Of a stretch of DNA of 64,000 nucleotides, positions 615 through 9,610 are shown one piece after another (the first letter of the stretch is position 1; each line of letters starts with the position of its first letter). Under the pieces are notes generated by a model. It ran no database searches. It was not told the DNA's origin and saw nothing but the letters and a program-made list of their open reading frames with translations. The DNA is taken from positions 620,001 to 684,000 of the forward strand of contig NZ_AP013042.1 of NCBI RefSeq assembly GCF_001547755.1, in the 5' to 3' direction. Source of the DNA: an endosymbiont of Bathymodiolus septemdierum str. Myojin knoll. GTDB taxonomy: Bacteria > Pseudomonadota > Gammaproteobacteria > PS1 > Pseudothioglobaceae. Position numbers and translations under genes: made by a program.

Positions 615-2051
615 ATGCACAACAAAACGATTGCACAATTAGCACAAGGTTTAAAAAACAAAGATTTTTCATCTGTTGAATTAACGCAACATTATTTAAA
701 GCGTATTAATCAATCAAAACTCAATGCTTTCATTACTGTTACCGATGAATTGGCAATGCGTCAGGCACAGGTTGCCGATGAAAAAATTACCAAAGGTGAA
801 GCAGGTATATTGACTGGTATTCCTTATGCACATAAAGATATTTTTTGCACCAATGGCGTGAAAACTTCCGCAGGCTCTAAAATGTTAGACAATTTTATTG
901 CGCCGTATGATGCCACCGTTAGCCACAAACTCAATCAAGCTGATATGGTGATGTTGGGCAAAACCAATATGGACGAATTTGCCATGGGTTCAAGCACTGA
1001 AAATTCTTATTATGGCGCAACAATCAACCCATGGGGCGACAACAAAATGCCAGGCGGTTCATCAGGTGGCTCAGCTGCTGCGGTGGCAGATCGGCTGGTG
1101 CCTTTTGCCACAGGTACCGACACTGGTGGCTCTATCCGTCAACCTTCAAGCGTGTGTGGTATCACAGGCTTAAAGCCGACTTATGGGCGTATTTCTCGTT
1201 ACGGTATGATTGCTTACGCATCTAGCCTTGATCAGGCGGGTCCAATGACACAAACTGCCGAAGATGCAGCCTTAACTCTGAATGTTATGGCAGGCTTTGA
1301 TGAAAAAGATTCCACCAGTGCGCAACGCGATGTTGAGGATTATACTGCCAGTCTAAATGATTCAATTAAAGGCTTAACTATCGGCTTACCTAAAGAATTT
1401 TTTTCCGAAGGTTTAGATAATGGTGTGGCTACTAAAGTCATGGCAGCCGTTAAAGAATTCGAAGCATTAGGTGCAACCGTCAAAGAAATCTCCCTGCCGA
1501 ATTCAGCTTACGCAATCCCCACTTATTATATCGTTGCCCCCTGTGAATGTTCCTCTAATTTATCTAGAATGGACGGCGTTCGTTTTGGTCATCGTTGTGA
1601 CAATCCAAAGGATTTGGAGGACTTATATGTGCGTTCTCGCACCGAAGGTTTTGGTGAAGAAGTCAAACGCCGCATTATGATTGGTGCCTACGCACTATCC
1701 GCAGGTTACTATGATGCTTATTATCTAAAAGCACAAAAAGTCAGACACCTAATTAGCGAAGATTTTAAAAAAGCCTTTAAGGAAGTCGATGTCATTATGG
1801 GCCCCGTCTCCCCAACCACCGCATGGGATTTAGGCGCAATCAAAGACCCAGTCGCCATGTATTTAGCCGACATCTACACACTCAGTGCGAACCTTGCAGG
1901 TCTACCAGGTATGAGCATACCCGCAGGCTTTTCAGACAAAATGCCTGTCGGCTTGCAGCTTATTGGTAATTACTGGTCAGAATCCAAATTGCTTAATATA
2001 GCACATCAGTTTCAACAGGCAACTGATTACCATGCAAAAATGCCTGTATAA
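615..2051 (+). CDS. gatA: Asp-tRNA(Asn)/Glu-tRNA(Gln) amidotransferase subunit A
   Basis: A 478-residue amidase-family glutaminase subunit that releases ammonia from glutamine for transfer to the misacylated tRNA. The Ser-cisSer-Lys catalytic triad is visible: K74 in AHKDIF, the GGSSGGS loop (S149/S150), and S173 in [11 protein letters not shown] chose the ATG at 615, one base after the gatC stop; an in-frame TTG at 606 would overlap gatC and add three residues. The gene is full length. It is followed not by gatB, as in a compact gatCAB operon, but by an AT-rich restriction-type cassette. Confidence 0.97.
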
Positions 2052-2139
2052 CTAATAAGATGAACAATAATATTGGCATTAATATATGTATCGATTGCCT
2101 TTTTTTTGTAAAATAACTGTAGAAAAATATAGGTAAAAA

Positions 2140-4314
2140 ATGAATACAGAAGCATTAATACAAAAAGCCATTAATAAAAAAATTATTAGTTTTAACAAAG
2201 ATAGAACGCGTATTACTTATTTACTGCAAAATAAAACTAAAAGTTATAAAACCGAAGAGATTGTTCAAGTTGATGCATATTTAAAGCTAATATTTGATTA
2301 CAATTATCCAAAAGAAAATATCAAGTTATTTGTGCCAGTCAAAATGGGCTCAGACAATCGTGAAGCTGATATTGTTGTTTATAGTGATAAAACTCACACC
2401 AAGCCTTTAATTGTTATTGAGTGTAAAAAATCTGATGTTAGCGAAGCAGAATATAAACAGTCAGTAGCACAAGGTTTTAGTTATGCTGTTAGTATTGGTG
2501 CTGATTTTGTTTGGGCAACTTCAAATATTAAAAACGAATATTATCAGGTTTCTAAAAAATACCCACAAAAACACGAAGAAATAGCCAATATCCCAAAATT
2601 GGGCGGCAAAGTTGCGGCATATAAATATGCAAAAAATGGTAATAGCGATTATTTTGATTTATCAATAGTGAGTGAAGACGAACTCACTGCTAGATTTAAA
2701 CAAGCCCATAATGCTTTATGGGGCGGTGGCGAGCTTAATCCATCAGAAGCATTTGATGAGTTAGATAAACTTATTTTTTGCAAAATATGGGATGAAAGAG
2801 CATTAAGGAGAACGGGCGAAGCGTATGATTTTCAAATCATTACTGAAAGTAATAATGGCGAGATTGATAATCAGGCAACACTAGATAATTTAGCAGAGCG
2901 CATTCACAAACTTTATGACAAAGGTAAAGAAAAAGACCCAGAAGTTTTTAAAGAAAATATTCGCCTGTCGCCTAGTCGTATTAAAACTGTCGTTGAATAT
3001 TTGCAACATATCAATTTAAGTGCAACAGATTTAGACAGCAAAGGTCGTGCATTTGAAACCTTTATGGGTTCATTTTTTCGTGGAGATTTTGGGCAATATT
3101 TTACCCCGCGCCCAATTGTGCAATTTATTGTAGATGCTCTGCCAATCACTCACGAATCAATGGTTTTAGATACCTCTTGTGGTAGTGGTGGTTTTTTGTT
3201 GCATGCACTTGATAAAGTTCGCAAAGAGGCGGATGAATATTATCCAGATGGCATTGCAATAGATGGCAAAAAAGAAAGTGCAGAACACCATAACCATTGG
3301 CATGACTTTGCAGAAAAAAAATTATGTGGAATAGAAATAAACGAACAAATTGCCCGCACTGCAAAAATGAATATGATTATTCATGATGATGGGCATACCA
3401 ATGTAATTGCCGCTGATGGATTGCTGCCGATTGATGATATTGTAGTTAAAAATCAAAATAACGAAGATGTTATTATTCAACAAGGCATTACATCACTGAC
3501 GCAAAATACTAACTTTGAAAATAATAATTTTGATTTTATTATTACCAACCCACCTTTTGGTTCAAGTATTCGTCAAACCGAACAAGCCTATATGCATCAA
3601 TATAGCATGGCAAAAAAAGATCTAGATTGGCTCAAACCAAATGATAAAACAAAAAATAGAGACAACCAAAGTACCGAGGTTTTATTTATTGAAAAATGCC
3701 ATAAATATCTAAAAGAAGGTGGCTATTTGGCAATTGTTGTACCTGATGGGATTTTAACCAATTCATCCTTGCAATATGTTCGTGATAATATTGAAGCTGA
3801 TTACCGCATTGTTGCGATTGTTTCCATGCCACAAACAGCATTTAGTGCCACAGGTGCTGGGGTTAAAAGCTCGGTAATGTTCTTGCGTAAGCACACAGCC
3901 CAAACCACAGAAACTATTAAGGCTCAAAAACAATCAATCAAAGATGATATTTTAGGAAATACTCAATTTTTTAAACAATTAAGTGATATAAATACCAATA
4001 AAAAAACAGACATTAAAAACTCAATAGGTTTTGAAAATACAGACAATTTAGAGCCCGAAGAATTAAATAAAACCGAGGCTTATAAAAATTGGAAAAAGTC
4101 TGTTAATGAAGCATATAAATCAAAAATTGATAATATAAAAGAAAAACTAAACGATAAATATTTAGCAGATAAAAAATCACAATTACAAGACTATGATATT
4201 TTTATGGCAATTGCAGAAAATATCGGTTATGACGCAACAGGAAAGCCAACCAATAACAATGAATTAGACTTTATTGGTCAAGAGCTGCAAAGATTTATTG
4301 AAAGTTTGGGTTAA
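2140..4314 (+). CDS. Restriction-modification methyltransferase with fused nuclease-like N-terminus (HsdM/BcgI-A-like)
   Basis: A 724-residue protein. Residues about 40-130 look like an HsdR N-terminal (PD-(D/E)xK) domain: D77 in READIVVY, followed by E94-x-K96 in VIECKK. Residues about 280-590 form an N6-adenine methyltransferase: GQYFTPRPIV leads into the SAM motif DTSCGSGGF (344-352) and the catalytic NPPF (470-473). The C-terminal 130 residues are Lys-rich and helical. It heads a four-gene cassette with dinD-like, hsdS and a DGQHR-like gene. No HsdR translocase is present, so it may act as a nuclease-methylase with the S subunit, as in type IIG/BcgI systems, or only methylate. Methylation of DNA is the secure part; cleavage is inferred from the motif. 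Confidence 0.85.
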   Translation: MNTEALIQKAINKKIISFNKDRTRITYLLQNKTKSYKTEEIVQVDAYLKLIFDYNYPKENIKLFVPVKMGSDNREADIVVYSDKTHTKPLIVIECKKSDVSEAEYKQSVAQGFSYAVSIGADFVWATSNIKNEYYQVSKKYPQKHEEIANIPKLGGKVAAYKYAKNGNSDYFDLSIVSEDELTARFKQAHNALWGGGELNPSEAFDELDKLIFCKIWDERALRRTGEAYDFQIITESNNGEIDNQATLDNLAERIHKLYDKGKEKDPEVFKENIRLSPSRIKTVVEYLQHINLSATDLDSKGRAFETFMGSFFRGDFGQYFTPRPIVQFIVDALPITHESMVLDTSCGSGGFLLHALDKVRKEADEYYPDGIAIDGKKESAEHHNHWHDFAEKKLCGIEINEQIARTAKMNMIIHDDGHTNVIAADGLLPIDDIVVKNQNNEDVIIQQGITSLTQNTNFENNNFDFIITNPPFGSSIRQTEQAYMHQYSMAKKDLDWLKPNDKTKNRDNQSTEVLFIEKCHKYLKEGGYLAIVVPDGILTNSSLQYVRDNIEADYRIVAIVSMPQTAFSATGAGVKSSVMFLRKHTAQTTETIKAQKQSIKDDILGNTQFFKQLSDINTNKKTDIKNSIGFENTDNLEPEELNKTEAYKNWKKSVNEAYKSKIDNIKEKLNDKYLADKKSQLQDYDIFMAIAENIGYDATGKPTNNNELDFIGQELQRFIESLG

Positions 4315-4317
4315 ATT

Positions 4318-5172
4318 ATGAAAAACGAAATCATTGAGTCGTTTGCAGGTAGTTTTGATACGCATTCACAAACGACTGATAGCGGTATAGAATTTTGGTT
4401 TGCAAGAGACCTGCAACATTTACTGGAATATAGTAAATGGGAAAATTTTCAAAATGTTGTATTTAAGGCAAAAACTGCGTGTGAAGTCGCTGGACATGAT
4501 ATATCTGACCATTTTCCTGAGGTCAGGAAAATGGTCAATATTGGTTCTGGTACAAAAAAAGAAATTGTTGATTTTATGCTCACCAGATACGCTTGCTATC
4601 TCATTGCTCAAAACGGCGACCCAAGAAAAGAAGCTATCGCATTTTCTCAAACCTATTTTGCCATGCAAACGCGTAAATTAGAGTTAATACAAGAGCAAAT
4701 ACACGGTTTAGAAAGACTGCAAGCCAGACAAAAACTCACTCATTCAGAAAAAGAACTCTCAGGCTTGATTTATAAACATACCCAAAATGATAGAAATTTT
4801 GGGGCTATTAGGTCAAAAGGCGATACAGCGCTTTTTGGTGGCAAAACCACCAAAGAGATGAAACAAAAAATGCAAATGCCAGATAATAGAGCGCTGGCTG
4901 ATTTTTTGCCTGCTATTACTATTAAAGCCAAAGATTTTGCCACAGAGATTACCGTTTTTAACACCAAAGAGCATAATTTAATAACTGAAAATTCCATAAC
5001 TTCTGAGCATATTAAAAACAATCAAGGCGTGCGAGATATTTTATTAAAACGCGGCATTAAACCTGAAGATTTACCAGCCGAGGAAGACATTAAAAAACTA
5101 GAACGCAAACTAAAGTCAATGGACAAGAAAATTTCCAAAAATCCTGATAGATTAGGTGTTGATGATGAGTAA
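4318..5172 (+). CDS. dinD: DinD-like DNA-damage-inducible protein
   Basis: A 284-residue protein close in length to E. coli DinD (about 274), with its characteristic segments: FWFARDLQHLLEY near the N-terminus, a central SRYACYLIAQNGDPRK-like block (here TRYACYLIAQNGDPRKEAI) and FAMQTRKLEL. In E. coli, DinD is an SOS-induced inhibitor of RecA filament function. It starts 3 bases after the methyltransferase stop and overlaps the start of hsdS, so it is translated as part of the restriction cassette. DinD relatives are known inside type I operons. Whether it here couples restriction to DNA damage is inference. No LexA box was recognised upstream of the cassette. Confidence 0.85.
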   Translation: MKNEIIESFAGSFDTHSQTTDSGIEFWFARDLQHLLEYSKWENFQNVVFKAKTACEVAGHDISDHFPEVRKMVNIGSGTKKEIVDFMLTRYACYLIAQNGDPRKEAIAFSQTYFAMQTRKLELIQEQIHGLERLQARQKLTHSEKELSGLIYKHTQNDRNFGAIRSKGDTALFGGKTTKEMKQKMQMPDNRALADFLPAITIKAKDFATEITVFNTKEHNLITENSITSEHIKNNQGVRDILLKRGIKPEDLPAEEDIKKLERKLKSMDKKISKNPDRLGVDDE

Positions 5173-6586
5173 TTTTCAACTTTCAAAACAAGTCAACCGC
5201 AATAAAATATTCTTAATTAAGTTTAGTGAATTAGGAAGTCGTTTTGAGCCAAAATTTTATACAAATATTTATACAAATAATGAAAAAAAACTTAATAATT
5301 CAAAATATGAAATAAGCAGTATTTATGAATCAACAAAATTAGTTAGTGATGGGACACATTTCACTCCAATATATAAGAATAGCGGGGTTAAATTTATTAG
5401 CGTTAAAAATGTTAGAACGTCTAAGATAAATTTTTCAAATGTTAAATATATTTCGAAGAAAGAGGCTGATAAATTAGATAGAAGATGTAAACCTATATAT
5501 GGGGATATTCTTTTAACAAAAGTAGGGAGCATTGGAAGAGCGTCAATGGTTTGTACCAATGAAAGGTTCCAAATTTTTGTGAGTGTTGCATTGTTAAGAC
5601 CAAACAATAAAGTTTCTTCAAAATACCTAGAAACTGCTTTAAATTTAAATTGTTCTTATTTGCAATATGACAGAGTTGTTAAAGGCTCTGGCGTTCCAGA
5701 TTTGCATTTAGAAGATATTAGAAAAATAAAAATACCAATCCCACCAAAAAAAATCCAAGCCGAGATTGTGGCAAAAATGGATACTGCTTATAAAAACAAA
5801 CAAGACAAAGAACAACAAGCACAAGATTTACTAAATAGTATTGACACTTATCTTTTGGGTGAGTTGGGCATTGATTTACCCAAACAAATTGATAACAGTT
5901 TAAAAGCAAGAATATTTACCAAAAAAATAAGTGATATTACGGGTGGGCGGTTTGATGCAATAAGCTCACATATGCAAATATATGAAAAATTTTTATTAGA
6001 AGGGAAAACAAAAGTCATTAAATTAAAAGCCGTTGTATCAAGTATTAAAACAGGTTCAACACCACATAATAAACTTGAGCCATATGTAGATAAAGGTATT
6101 CCATTTTTAAGAAATACAAATATTAGTAATGGTTGTATAAACTTATCTAAAGTTAAATTTATAAAAAATGAATTAAAAAATGAATTAACTTATTCAAGTA
6201 AAAATGATGTAATAATTTGTATTGCTGGAACGGTTGGAAATTCTGCCGTAAATACTTATGATAATTTATCAATAAATCAAAATATAACATCTTTGACATT
6301 GAATAAAAATAAGATAAATCCATATTTTTTAAATTATTATTTTAATAGTGACTTAAGTATAAAACTTGTAAAAAGACAGTGTTCGATAGCAACAATTTTA
6401 TATATAAATAATGATAATTTATTAAATTTATACATCCCACTACCACCATTAGTAAAACAAAATCAAATCGCAGAGCGTATTAACAAAATACGAGACCAAG
6501 CAAAACAATTACAAATTGAAGCAAAAGACGAATTAGAACAAGCAAAAAAAGAAATTGAAACGATGATTTTAGGCGGTGAACAATGA
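5165..6586 (+). CDS. hsdS: Type I-like specificity subunit S
   Basis: A 473-residue HsdS with two target-recognition domains (about 25-175 and 240-420), each followed by a helical spacer (EIVAKMDTAYKNKQDKEQ and QIAERINKIRDQAKQL). Motifs such as GDILLTKVGSIGRA and the PIPPKKIQ and PLPPLVKQ junctions are typical. It should set the DNA sequence recognised by the methyltransferase at 2140. I chose the ATG at 5165 because an AGGTG stretch lies 6 bases upstream; ATG 5162 and GTG 5156 are in-frame alternatives. The start overlaps dinD, and the stop overlaps the next gene as ATGA. Confidence 0.88.
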   Translation: MSNFQLSKQVNRNKIFLIKFSELGSRFEPKFYTNIYTNNEKKLNNSKYEISSIYESTKLVSDGTHFTPIYKNSGVKFISVKNVRTSKINFSNVKYISKKEADKLDRRCKPIYGDILLTKVGSIGRASMVCTNERFQIFVSVALLRPNNKVSSKYLETALNLNCSYLQYDRVVKGSGVPDLHLEDIRKIKIPIPPKKIQAEIVAKMDTAYKNKQDKEQQAQDLLNSIDTYLLGELGIDLPKQIDNSLKARIFTKKISDITGGRFDAISSHMQIYEKFLLEGKTKVIKLKAVVSSIKTGSTPHNKLEPYVDKGIPFLRNTNISNGCINLSKVKFIKNELKNELTYSSKNDVIICIAGTVGNSAVNTYDNLSINQNITSLTLNKNKINPYFLNYYFNSDLSIKLVKRQCSIATILYINNDNLLNLYIPLPPLVKQNQIAERINKIRDQAKQLQIEAKDELEQAKKEIETMILGGEQ

Positions 6587-8151
6587 TTTTACGCGGCTTG
6601 CTTGATCGTTCATTGGGTAATATGGTTTGTATTCGTGGTTTTGCTAAGTTAGGAGATTTGGCAAATATTTCAATAGCAGATGAAAGTTATCAGCGTGATT
6701 TAATTACAGAGCATAAACAAGAAGTTTTAGACTTTTTGCGTGAACAAGAAACGCTATTTTTTCCTGAAATAATTTTAAGTTATAGTGTTGATGAGTTGGT
6801 GCTAGATTTGCATCAATTTAAGTATAATGATAAACACTTAAAAATAACAACCAAAACAAATAAGTATAAAAATAAACAAGATGCAAGGGGCAAAGATAGT
6901 ATGCAAATTGCTACTATCAACATTACAGAGAATATTTATTTTGGGTTTAAAGGTCAAAACAACGTCAAAGGTTTTGGTCAAGCGCCTTTTCGCAGAAAAG
7001 ATGACAAATCAGTTAATGAAATATTTAAACGCATTGATGGCAATCATCGATTAAGTGCTGCTGATGAGGAGATAAAGGATAACAATATTCAAGATTTAAT
7101 TACGCCGTTTTGTTTGTTATTATTGCCTAAACAGTTTGAAACAAACGCTAATACATTTGAAGAACTTACCACAGATAAATTGGAAAAGACTATTTTTCAC
7201 AATATTAACTATAAACACATTCCACTGAAAAAAGAGCATCATTACAAAATGATGATTGGCGATGAAACGGTTTTTACCGATACTAATTTAACGAAAAATT
7301 TTGGCGAAGAATATTCTTCTGCAAGATGTTATTTAAACGAATTTAATTATGGTGAATTTGGCAATTTAAAATCAGCATTAGTTGATAATAAATATACTTT
7401 TACGCATGATTTACAAAAGTTATTATTAGATAAAGATGGGCAGCAAAGAAAGGGCAGTAAGGATATTAACCAAACATTGAAGTTAATAAACACAATTTAT
7501 GGCAATCATCCAATATTATCAAAACATAAGCATTATGGTTTGTTAATTGCCTTTGTATATTTTGCAGTGCGCGCCAATAAATCATTATCAGAAAAAGAAC
7601 TCAATGCTTTTGCCACTTGGGTGGTTGATAATTTTGTGTATAAAATTTCCCAAAAAGATGCAAATAGCATTATTGCAATGTATGAAAATATTATTGAAAA
7701 ACGCTATAAAGAAATTTTTATTTCAATGGATTTTTCTACAAAATATCAAGCCACTTATCAAGCAATAAAGGGTGTTATCAACGAAATAAACACTGATTTA
7801 CAAGAAAATATTAAATTATATCCAATGCGTATTGATCAATTTCAAACAGGATATTCTTATAAATTAGATAATGAAATTTTCAAACAAATTGAACAATGCG
7901 GTTTGATGATTGCAGATTTATCAAATAATAATGTTAATGTATATCAAGAAGTTGGTTTTGCAATGGGGCTTAATTGTAATTCTGATAATGAAAACATACT
8001 ATTATTAAAACAAGACAGCAAACAAGATGAATCAGTTGATAGCGAGGTAGGCTTTAATTTACGCTCAACTAAACAATTAAGATTTAAAGATACAGAAGAT
8101 TTAAGACAATCTTTAGAATCAGAGCTTTTAAAATATTATGAATTGAAATAA
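6583..8151 (+). CDS. DGQHR/ParB-like protein with C-terminal TIR/deoxyribosyltransferase-like domain
   Basis: A 522-residue protein with two recognisable parts. The N-terminal half has the layout of DGQHR (DndB-like) proteins: SYQRDLI, then FFPEIILS, and RIDGNHRLSAA at 150-160, the variant of the DGQHR signature. Residues about 375-465 resemble the TIR-like/nucleoside 2-deoxyribosyltransferase-like fold: EIFISMDFS, a Rossmann-like alternation, then ADLSNNNVNVYQEVGFAMG with a candidate catalytic Glu at 456. The start codon overlaps the hsdS stop (ATGA), so it belongs to the restriction cassette. DndB-like proteins act in DNA-modification systems, and TIR-like domains often degrade NAD or nucleotides. 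An abortive or regulatory role here is inference. The assignment of each half rests on motifs only. Confidence 0.65.
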   Translation: MILRGLLDRSLGNMVCIRGFAKLGDLANISIADESYQRDLITEHKQEVLDFLREQETLFFPEIILSYSVDELVLDLHQFKYNDKHLKITTKTNKYKNKQDARGKDSMQIATINITENIYFGFKGQNNVKGFGQAPFRRKDDKSVNEIFKRIDGNHRLSAADEEIKDNNIQDLITPFCLLLLPKQFETNANTFEELTTDKLEKTIFHNINYKHIPLKKEHHYKMMIGDETVFTDTNLTKNFGEEYSSARCYLNEFNYGEFGNLKSALVDNKYTFTHDLQKLLLDKDGQQRKGSKDINQTLKLINTIYGNHPILSKHKHYGLLIAFVYFAVRANKSLSEKELNAFATWVVDNFVYKISQKDANSIIAMYENIIEKRYKEIFISMDFSTKYQATYQAIKGVINEINTDLQENIKLYPMRIDQFQTGYSYKLDNEIFKQIEQCGLMIADLSNNNVNVYQEVGFAMGLNCNSDNENILLLKQDSKQDESVDSEVGFNLRSTKQLRFKDTEDLRQSLESELLKYYELK

Positions 8152-8179
8152 TACATAGATCATTAATTAGGAATTAAAT

Positions 8180-9610
8180 ATGGAATGGGAAACAGTTATT
8201 GGGCTTGAAATTCACGCGCAATTAAATACAAAATCTAAGATATTTTCATCAGCTTCTACGCAATTTGGTGCGCAGCCGAATTCACAGGCTTGTGCGGTTG
8301 ACCTTGGCTTGCCGGGTGTGTTGCCAGTATTGAATAAAGAAGCGGTGAATAAAGGTATTAAATTTGGTTTATCGGTGGGTGCGCATATTAATCAACGCAA
8401 TGTTTTTGATAGAAAAAATTACTTTTATCCTGACCTGCCAAAAGGCTATCAAACCTCGCAACTAGATTGGCCGATTGTGGGTGAAGGGCAGATTGATATT
8501 ACCATCGGCAATACCGTTAAAACGGTTGGTATCACTCGTGCACACTTGGAAGAGGATGCGGGCAAATCAGTCCATGATATGTTTGATGATTACACTGCGG
8601 TGGACCTAAATCGTGCGGGCACACCGCTGCTGGAAATCGTTTCTGAGCCGGATATGCGTAGCGCTAAAGAAGCCGTCGCTTATGCGAAGAAAATTCACGC
8701 TTTGGTACAATATATTGATATTTGTGATGGCAATATGCAAGAGGGGTCTTTTCGCTGTGATGCCAATGTTTCTATCCGTCCGATGGGGCAGGAAAAACTC
8801 GGCACCCGTGCAGAACTTAAAAATATTAATTCGTTTAAATTCTTAGAAAAAGCCATCAATCTTGAAGTGCAAAGACAGCAAGATATTTTAGAGGACGGTG
8901 GTGAAGTAGCGCAAGAAACACGCCTGTATGACTCGATAAAGAACGAAACCCGTTCAATGCGTTCAAAAGAAGAGGCGAATGATTATCGCTATTTCCCCGA
9001 CCCAGATTTATTACCGATTGAGATTCCAGATGAATTATTGGTTGAAATTAAGTCCCAACTGCCAGAGTTGCCGCCTGAAAAGAAAGCTCGTTTCGTTAAA
9101 GATTTTGGTTTGAGCGATTATGATGCCGATGTATTAACGACGCAAAAACCCTTGGCAGATTATTTCGAGGCAATGTTAAAAGGCAACGAGCCTAACGCCA
9201 AACTTTGTGCAAATTGGGTAATGGGAGAACTTAGTGCTGCGCTCAACAAAGAGCAAATAGATATCCAAGCATCGCCTGTTTCGGCGCAAGATTTATCACA
9301 GCTCATTACTCGCATCGGTGATGATACTATTTCTGGTAAGATTGCTAAAGATGTTTTTAAAGCAATGTGGGATGGCGAAGGCAATGTTGATGAAATCATT
9401 AATGCAAAAGGTTTAAAACAAATGAGTGATACCGGTGAAATTGAATCTATTGTTGATGAAATTATTGCCAACAATGCCCCGCAAGTTGAGCAATTCAAAT
9501 CTGGTAATGAAAAAATATTAGGTTTCTTCGTTGGACAGGCGATGAAAGCAACGGGTGGCAAAGCTAATCCTAAAATGCTCAATGAAATGCTCAGGTTAAA
9601 ACTTGGCTAA
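8180..9610 (+). CDS. gatB: Asp-tRNA(Asn)/Glu-tRNA(Gln) amidotransferase subunit B
   Basis: A 476-residue GatB, the subunit that binds and activates misacylated tRNA. It begins with the family hallmark [13 protein letters not shown], carries the [11 protein letters not shown] and HLEEDAGKS motifs of the catalytic cradle, and ends with the helical YqeY-like tail domain. The ATG at 8180 is preceded by TTAGGAA at suitable spacing. It is the missing partner of gatC-gatA and resumes directly after the restriction-type cassette, so it may now depend on read-through from the cassette or a local promoter. The gene appears intact. Confidence 0.97.

Follow-up and report, generated by a model that had tools for sequence, protein, structure and literature searches.

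The DinD protein of Escherichia coli is reported to inhibit RecA (Uranga 2011, as cited in PMC10602874), and genes of its family have also been met in restriction-modification (RM) loci. In Btr190I of Bibersteinia trehalosi strain 190, dinD is described as fused to the 5' end of hsdS, and the cloned M and S genes still methylate (PMC4996451). The PADLOC collection contains PDC-S13, a DinD-like candidate for a single-gene defence, for which PADLOC offers no mechanism. The PDC set originates from a guilt-by-embedding approach according to PMC12988326, and the name PDC-S13 was not found in the literature that we searched. The presence of DinD in RM loci is thus already recognised, both by the PDC-S13 model and by the Bibersteinia fusion. 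The closest described restriction systems to the one considered here are the Type IIB enzymes BsaXI and BcgI, which combine an RM fusion with a separate S subunit; RM.BsaXI is reported to have an (RM)2S composition (PMC11997821).

Here, we describe a dinD gene of a Bathymodiolus septemdierum endosymbiont that lies inside a restriction operon of the window, the 64,000-nucleotide stretch of DNA that was analysed (Table 1). The encoded protein belongs to the same NCBI family as E. coli DinD (NF008573, 355 bits against a cut-off of 242) and is full-length, since the model is matched up to position 287 of 288. It contains a Bro-N domain and shares 35% identity with E. coli DinD, which differs in belonging to clade A and in occupying the chromosomal yicC-dinD-yicG site. 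The PDC-S13 model recognises the window protein with 376 bits, and this member of the PDC-S13 family is likewise embedded in a restriction operon. A second PADLOC model, Specificity_I (PDLC03083, 717 positions), matches DinD with 169 bits over positions 10-278. As in Btr190I, dinD stands directly 5' of hsdS; the Btr190I genes are fused (PMC4996451), whereas in the window the two remain distinct genes that overlap, and the RM subunit is Type IIB-like.

Table 1. Positions of the operon, its genes and the palindrome in the window
Feature	Position	Strand	Description
dinD	4318-5172	+	284 aa, frame open throughout; Bro-N domain and helical part; predicted DdrC-like fold
Fused RM subunit	2140-4314	+	HSDR_N_2 nuclease at residues 39-152, N6_Mtase at 299-603; Type IIB-like
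hsdS-type specificity subunit	5156-6586	+	Two Methylase_S stretches; overlaps the end of dinD
ORF4	6583-8151	+	522 aa; weakly DGQHR-like, C-terminal part weakly TIR-like; also in sister operon L281
gatA-gatB interval holding the operon	2052-8179		Gap between gatA and gatB usually 13-14 nt in relatives
Palindrome in dinD	4506-4537		Perfect 14-bp arms at 4506-4519 and 4524-4537, 4-nt centre

The restriction operon and its control

A preliminary description of this DNA had dinD translationally meshed with an hsdM gene upstream and an hsdS gene downstream. The meshing is borne out by a gap of only 3 nt between the upstream stop codon and the dinD start and by the overlap with hsdS. The listed hsdS ORF starts with the GTG at 5156, ahead of ATG codons at 5162 and 5165, so the hsdS frame overlaps the dinD stop; hsdS and ORF4 in turn overlap by 4 nt. 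The upstream gene, however, is not a plain hsdM. Its HSDR_N_2 nuclease domain has a D-x16-E-C-K motif and is joined to the N6_Mtase domain, and its best PDB match by sequence is RM.BsaXI. By domain composition, it encodes a fused, Type IIB-like RM subunit, given that nuclease and methyltransferase occupy one chain and that a separate S subunit has two recognition stretches. The window RM subunit is shorter than that of BsaXI (724 vs 916 aa), and the operon differs from those of BsaXI and BcgI in its additional dinD and ORF4 genes. A Type I system would include a separate HsdR, and none is present among the four genes between gatA and gatB. Likewise, matches to the MADS proteins stay below the NCBIfam equivalog cut-offs (MAD2, 307.6 vs 720 bits; MAD5, 114.5 vs 400 bits). 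The host also has a second relative of the RM subunit (L300, G000:C1:745280-746905; 34% identity), which adjoins an S gene and is accompanied by no DinD.

The fourth gene had been taken for a DGQHR gene, a label that the TIGR03187 score does not sustain (18.5 bits, below the cut-off of 58.85), and we describe ORF4 as weakly DGQHR-like. ORF4 may join DGQHR-like and TIR-like parts, both matches being weak. A full-length relative of ORF4 (38% identity) occupies the same place in the sister operon L281, and ORF4 matches occur in two of 398 genomes, the host's own included; no ORF4 relative was confirmed in viral contigs. The suggested survey of DinD together with DGQHR found no ORF4 homologue beside any other DinD of the census, and the pair is therefore not a recurrent unit.

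Of 19 loci in relatives that show both gatA and gatB, 10 have only 13-14 nt between the aligned ends of the two genes, and the four-gene operon is thus an insertion. In some relatives, gatB is preceded by other genes. We considered a defence hotspot between gatA and gatB and set it aside, as BLASTP with the window RM, S, DinD and ORF4 proteins found no relative at this site in the relatives.

E. coli dinD is an SOS gene, whereas the window host has no LexA match above the cut-off: RecA is present, but the best LexA_DNA_bind match reaches 13.5 bits against a cut-off of 23.7, which makes classical SOS control unlikely. An E. coli-type LexA box with one mismatch is located at 2117-2132, and such sites number 18 in the window against 14.7 expected by chance. 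The 3.8-kb recA locus contains no LexA box within one mismatch. A perfect CTGT-N8-ACAG sequence precedes none of 58 RM-adjacent and two of 95 standalone dinD genes. Control of dinD by LexA is improbable, given the lack of a LexA match above the cut-off, of a box in the recA locus and, with few exceptions, of upstream boxes. Within E. coli, two dinD alleles (L272:4950-5774 and L302:2755-3579) are 47% identical over residues 10-82 and 97% identical afterwards, a pattern that suggests exchange of the Bro-N part.

Position of DinD among restriction genes

We surveyed the neighbours of DinD in three sets of loci. The near set comprises the best 80 of at least 579 confirmed DinD loci from a scan of GTDB genomes and, for this reason, leans to close relatives. 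The Pseudomonadota set represents the phylum of the window (20 stretches fetched, 397 genomes drawn) and leaves out weak matches in G065, G364, G076 and G053:C16. The Bacteroidota set represents the phylum of a Chryseobacterium (51 stretches above the cut-off, 345 genomes drawn) and leaves out hits in G659, G675 and G787:C288. One DinD gene shorter than 150 aa was left out of the census. RM genes were labelled with HMMs made for this analysis rather than with Pfam; the label "none" is an upper bound, since these HMMs can miss RM genes, and Type III neighbours were recognised after Pfam had been applied to ten neighbour proteins.

Of the 83 DinD genes in the near set (window included), 28 have a same-strand RM gene no more than 400 bp away, as do 7 of 19 in Pseudomonadota and 23 of 51 in Bacteroidota. 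These counts contain four duplicate loci (L164, L173, L198 and L207), which were omitted from the tree and from the later palindrome tests; their removal changes the fractions to 7/17 in Pseudomonadota and 22/49 in Bacteroidota. Over all DinD loci, 90 of 280 sides have an RM gene that starts no more than 1 kb away (0.321 per kb), compared with 3 of 198 sides at a distance of 6-8 kb (0.0076 per kb). The placement of DinD beside RM genes thus exceeds chance, in agreement with the earlier expectation that DinD is positioned non-randomly in relatives.

The adjoining systems are of Type I, Type III and Type IIB/IIG, and the position of dinD within them is regular. Both genes were identified in 16 Type III loci, and in 15 of these DinD is flanked by Mod and Res, in the order Mod-DinD-Res in seven and Res-DinD-Mod in eight (L211 is the exception). 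The probability of finding at least 15 of 16 in the middle of three random slots is approximately 1e-6, a value that overstates the case because the loci are related. In 22 of 38 Type I/II loci, the first RM gene downstream of DinD is an hsdS no more than 450 bp away; in four of the 38, hsdS lies just upstream. RM genes are the sole recurrent neighbours that we found for DinD. Standalone DinD genes have neighbours of many kinds, mostly housekeeping by name, with no Pfam family in more than three of 53 proteins. Other defence partners of standalone DinD were sought and rejected, as no PADLOC model occurs in more than two of the 53 flanking proteins; the two matched proteins belong to cysteine-desulfurase-type DndA/SspA models.

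Two individual settings were noted during the survey. Among 5426 complete E. coli genomes, two, STEC309 (L303) and STEC639 (L272), have a Type III mod-res pair immediately before chromosomal dinD, and in STEC309 the pair is preceded by a DUF262/DUF1524 gene. In the Streptococcus satellite phage Javan733 (L276), dinD occupies a cargo position, with the integrase gene on one side and putative genes for DNA-binding regulators on the other.

Regular placement does not make DinD an essential part of the restriction system. A search of 378 genomes yielded another 19 relatives of the window RM subunit, including one from the host itself. None has DinD within about 1.5 kb, although some of these flanks are cut short by contig ends. 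The closest operon, L281, has the order RM-S-ORF4 with a 35-nt gap between RM and S and lacks DinD. DinD is thus no essential part of the machinery, and the preliminary proposal that it is a working part is not supported in its strict sense.

A tree of 141 labelled DinD genes (57 RM and 84 none) points to mobility. The RM label changes 38 times on the tree, compared with 44.5 +/- 2.9 times when labels are shuffled, and is thus weakly clustered; Type I and Type III labels interchange at least 11 times. These changes indicate that DinD moves into and out of RM loci often. Moreover, over half of the collected genes (84 of the 141 tips) have no adjacent RM gene, and the partnership is therefore not obligatory. 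The nearest relative of the window DinD on the tree, L030 from a Thioglobus MAG, lies 72 nt after a DNA-ligase gene. DinD genes are also present in satellite phages, a phage and plasmids.

A conserved palindrome in dinD

A scan for terminators first revealed the perfect 14-bp inverted repeat inside dinD (Table 1). Its 30-bp core (4507-4536) encodes DHFPEVRKMV, codons 64-73, and the general form of the palindrome is GACCATTTT-N12-AAAATGGTC. In 144 DinD genes, the corresponding 30-mers form on average 11.22 of 13 possible Watson-Crick pairs, compared with 7.91 when synonymous codons are redrawn, and the largest of 300 draws reached 8.21. The excess amounts to 3.22 pairs at this site, whereas none of the other 189 codon offsets exceeds 0.56. 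The synonymous redraw rules out that the palindrome is a by-product of the protein motif.

Codon choice within the motif departs from that of the surrounding gene. The motif histidine is encoded by CAT 137 times against 4, compared with 430 against 300 elsewhere in the same genes, and the motif lysine by AAA 115 times against 8, compared with 2252 against 1372. Even the genes with a GC content of at least 0.60 (n = 9) all use CAT and TTT in the palindrome (9/9), whereas outside it the same nine genes favour CAC (38 vs 16) and TTC (71 vs 19). The first and last codons covary in 138 genes, with GAC and GTN combined in 79 and GAT and ATH in 32, compared with one case of GAC with ATH and none of GAT with GTN. 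Pairing is also preserved by codon pairs that alter two amino acids (GTT/AAC, CGT/ACG, CCT/AGG, GCT/AGC and GAG/CTC). When arms are shuffled between genes, the mean for 109 distinct 30-mers falls from 11.29 to 9.45 pairs. The palindrome is imperfect in part of these 109 30-mers, with a G-G at pair 10 in 17 and a mismatch at pair 5 in 22. At pair 7, G-T accounts for 12 of 16 non-Watson-Crick cases; in general, G-T pairs are not favoured over other mismatches, and we therefore prefer, short of proof, an element that acts at the DNA level over an RNA hairpin. A search of positions 2000-8300 against Rfam gave no match up to E = 1.

By thresholds of 9 of 13 pairs and at most five mismatches among the 18 arm bases, applied anywhere in the gene, an internal site is present in 130 of 134 intact dinD genes. 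An upstream site, defined more strictly by at most four mismatches and 10 of 13 pairs, lies 52-91 nt before the ORF start in three of the four genes without an internal site and in five of the other 130 (Fisher p = 0.0006); one of the five genes with both sites, L080, matches poorly. The viral DinD gene L331 has no internal site and carries a perfect palindrome just 5' of its likely ATG. Overall, the palindrome occurs within 400 nt upstream of 12 of 153 DinD genes and downstream of one of 150; the upstream hits in L038, L072, L207 and L216 look like the internal motif of dinD genes that are split or truncated. The site is retained alike by RM-embedded (55 of 57) and standalone genes (79 of 84). 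The palindrome is kept in both DinD clades and in bacteria, archaeal MAGs and phages, and the K-12-type allele of E. coli dinD likewise has one with 12 of 13 pairs. The palindrome is therefore kept by selection, far beyond the needs of the protein, and this conserved intragenic element of dinD may be a new result.

The palindrome is also found outside dinD. A degenerate pattern of it occurs in 43 of 56 selected DinD-bearing genomes, usually in one place, and its reversed control in none. In viral contigs, the exact palindrome occurs in at least 120 stretches, compared with 5 and 0 for two invented palindromes, which rules out chance hairpins of viral DNA. Among the matches listed, 80 viral sites comprise 9 in a DinD-like frame and 71 outside such frames (L309, L320, L337, L353, L362 and L381 are examples of the latter), and a simple ORF rule places 37 of these 80 listed sites between genes. 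For sites with a gene identified on each side, the two genes are in tandem (20), convergent (7) or divergent (1). The 39 flanking proteins scanned include terminases, endolysins, transposases and an integrase. Pfam assigned ten viral ORFs that cover the palindrome to Bro-N in one case, to a weak coiled coil in one and to no family in eight.

What is the function of the palindrome in dinD? One reading is that dinD is a self-contained switch, in which a DNA-binding protein with Bro-N and a DdrC-like predicted fold is combined with its own candidate operator in codons 64-73. Bound to this intragenic operator, DinD would set how much transcription continues into the gene downstream (hsdS, res or mod). 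It would leave the operator for DNA breaks and thereby couple restriction to breakage. If so, the palindrome would in part determine the protein motif DHFxxVxKMV, and not the reverse. The many viral sites without a visible tie to DinD speak against an operator that serves DinD only, and we regard such a switch as unlikely.

Predicted fold and proposed role of DinD

The AlphaFold model of the window DinD (71 sequences, pLDDT 88.7, pTM 0.68) begins with an N-terminal part that contains the Bro-N stretch, followed by a 51-residue helix and a helical C-terminal part. The five PDB chains that match this model with E values of at most 0.001 are all DdrC of Deinococcus radiodurans, which has a two-part fold like that predicted for DinD. 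In VIA-align, the model and DdrC align over 202 residues with a Z score of 15.6 (8.5 for the next unrelated row), at approximately 15% identity and an rmsd of 9.6 A; this rmsd suggests that the parts of the predicted DinD structure and of DdrC are turned relative to each other. Viral structure models that match the DinD model include KilA-N, Bro-N and antirepressor proteins. DdrC was not found by the DinD sequence profile, and the literature searched for DinD and DdrC together yielded one paper that names both, a 2013 review. To our knowledge, DdrC is not an RM-linked gene. The DdrC-like fold predicted for DinD may therefore be a new result. DdrC is reported to bind single- and double-stranded DNA, to shield it from nucleases, to anneal strands and to circularise linear plasmids (PMC5436757). 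Given these activities and the predicted likeness in fold, we propose that DinD acts on broken DNA.

The recurrent placement in RM loci, the DdrC-like predicted fold and the palindrome together suggest that DinD may be a break-handling or regulatory add-on. We tentatively favour, at somewhat less than even confidence, the reading that DinD is an exchangeable, co-expressed accessory that was captured between the RM and S genes, handles breaks and has a cis element of its own. The dinD gene would have been captured between the two genes of a Type IIB-like system and be expressed together with it. DinD would then bind the breaks that the restriction enzyme makes, either in phage DNA or through misfire on the host, and would hold or shield the ends and also keep RecA from using them. 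The outcome would be less recombinational rescue of cut invader DNA or less damage to the host. These actions on ends and on RecA are borrowed from the shared predicted fold and from a 35%-identical relative. With lower confidence, the palindrome may serve as a cis element of dinD that tunes the level of DinD and perhaps also how much transcription reads through into the RM gene that follows.

DinD could instead be an independent defence gene that shares the operon, as the PDC-S13 model implies with its high score and as embedding in several RM types would allow. It would then have its own anti-phage activity, perhaps triggered upon inhibition of restriction. PrrC offers a precedent, as it is described at a Type IC locus and is triggered when restriction is inhibited (PMC12707154), and the cargo position of dinD between a repressor module and the integrase of a streptococcal satellite phage fits such a role. 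However, DinD displays no visible toxin, nuclease or NTPase domain, only Bro-N and a predicted DdrC-like fold, and standalone DinD has housekeeping neighbours and no other recurrent defence genes. We consider independent defence doubtful.

A mobile passenger is a rather unlikely explanation. dinD would persist because RM loci recombine and spread, and its position between subunit genes would guard it against deletion, with no role in restriction. The frequent label changes on the tree (RM labels against shuffled ones, Type I against Type III), the majority of tips without an adjacent RM gene and the presence of dinD on satellite phages, a phage and plasmids would all be expected of a passenger. 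Such a gene would not readily account for its place between both Type III genes, for the bias to just 5' of hsdS, for the lack of any other recurrent neighbour or for the functional dinD-hsdS fusion described in PMC4996451.

Finally, the preliminary model of DinD as a working part of the restriction machine through RecA inhibition is improbable: tight spacing and overlap in the operon, recurrence in RM loci, the RecA of the host and the still working dinD-hsdS fusion (PMC4996451) agree with it, but the sister RM-S-ORF4 operon and all 19 RM-subunit relatives lack DinD nearby, and RecA inhibition is known only from the 35%-identical E. coli protein.

Genes embedded in restriction operons have been taken as candidate defences by position alone. 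With the reading of DinD as an exchangeable break-handling accessory, one such candidate gains a testable activity, the binding of breaks suggested by the DdrC-like predicted fold, and a testable cis element, the palindrome. Both bear on what DinD does and on why a supposed modulator of RecA travels with restriction enzymes.
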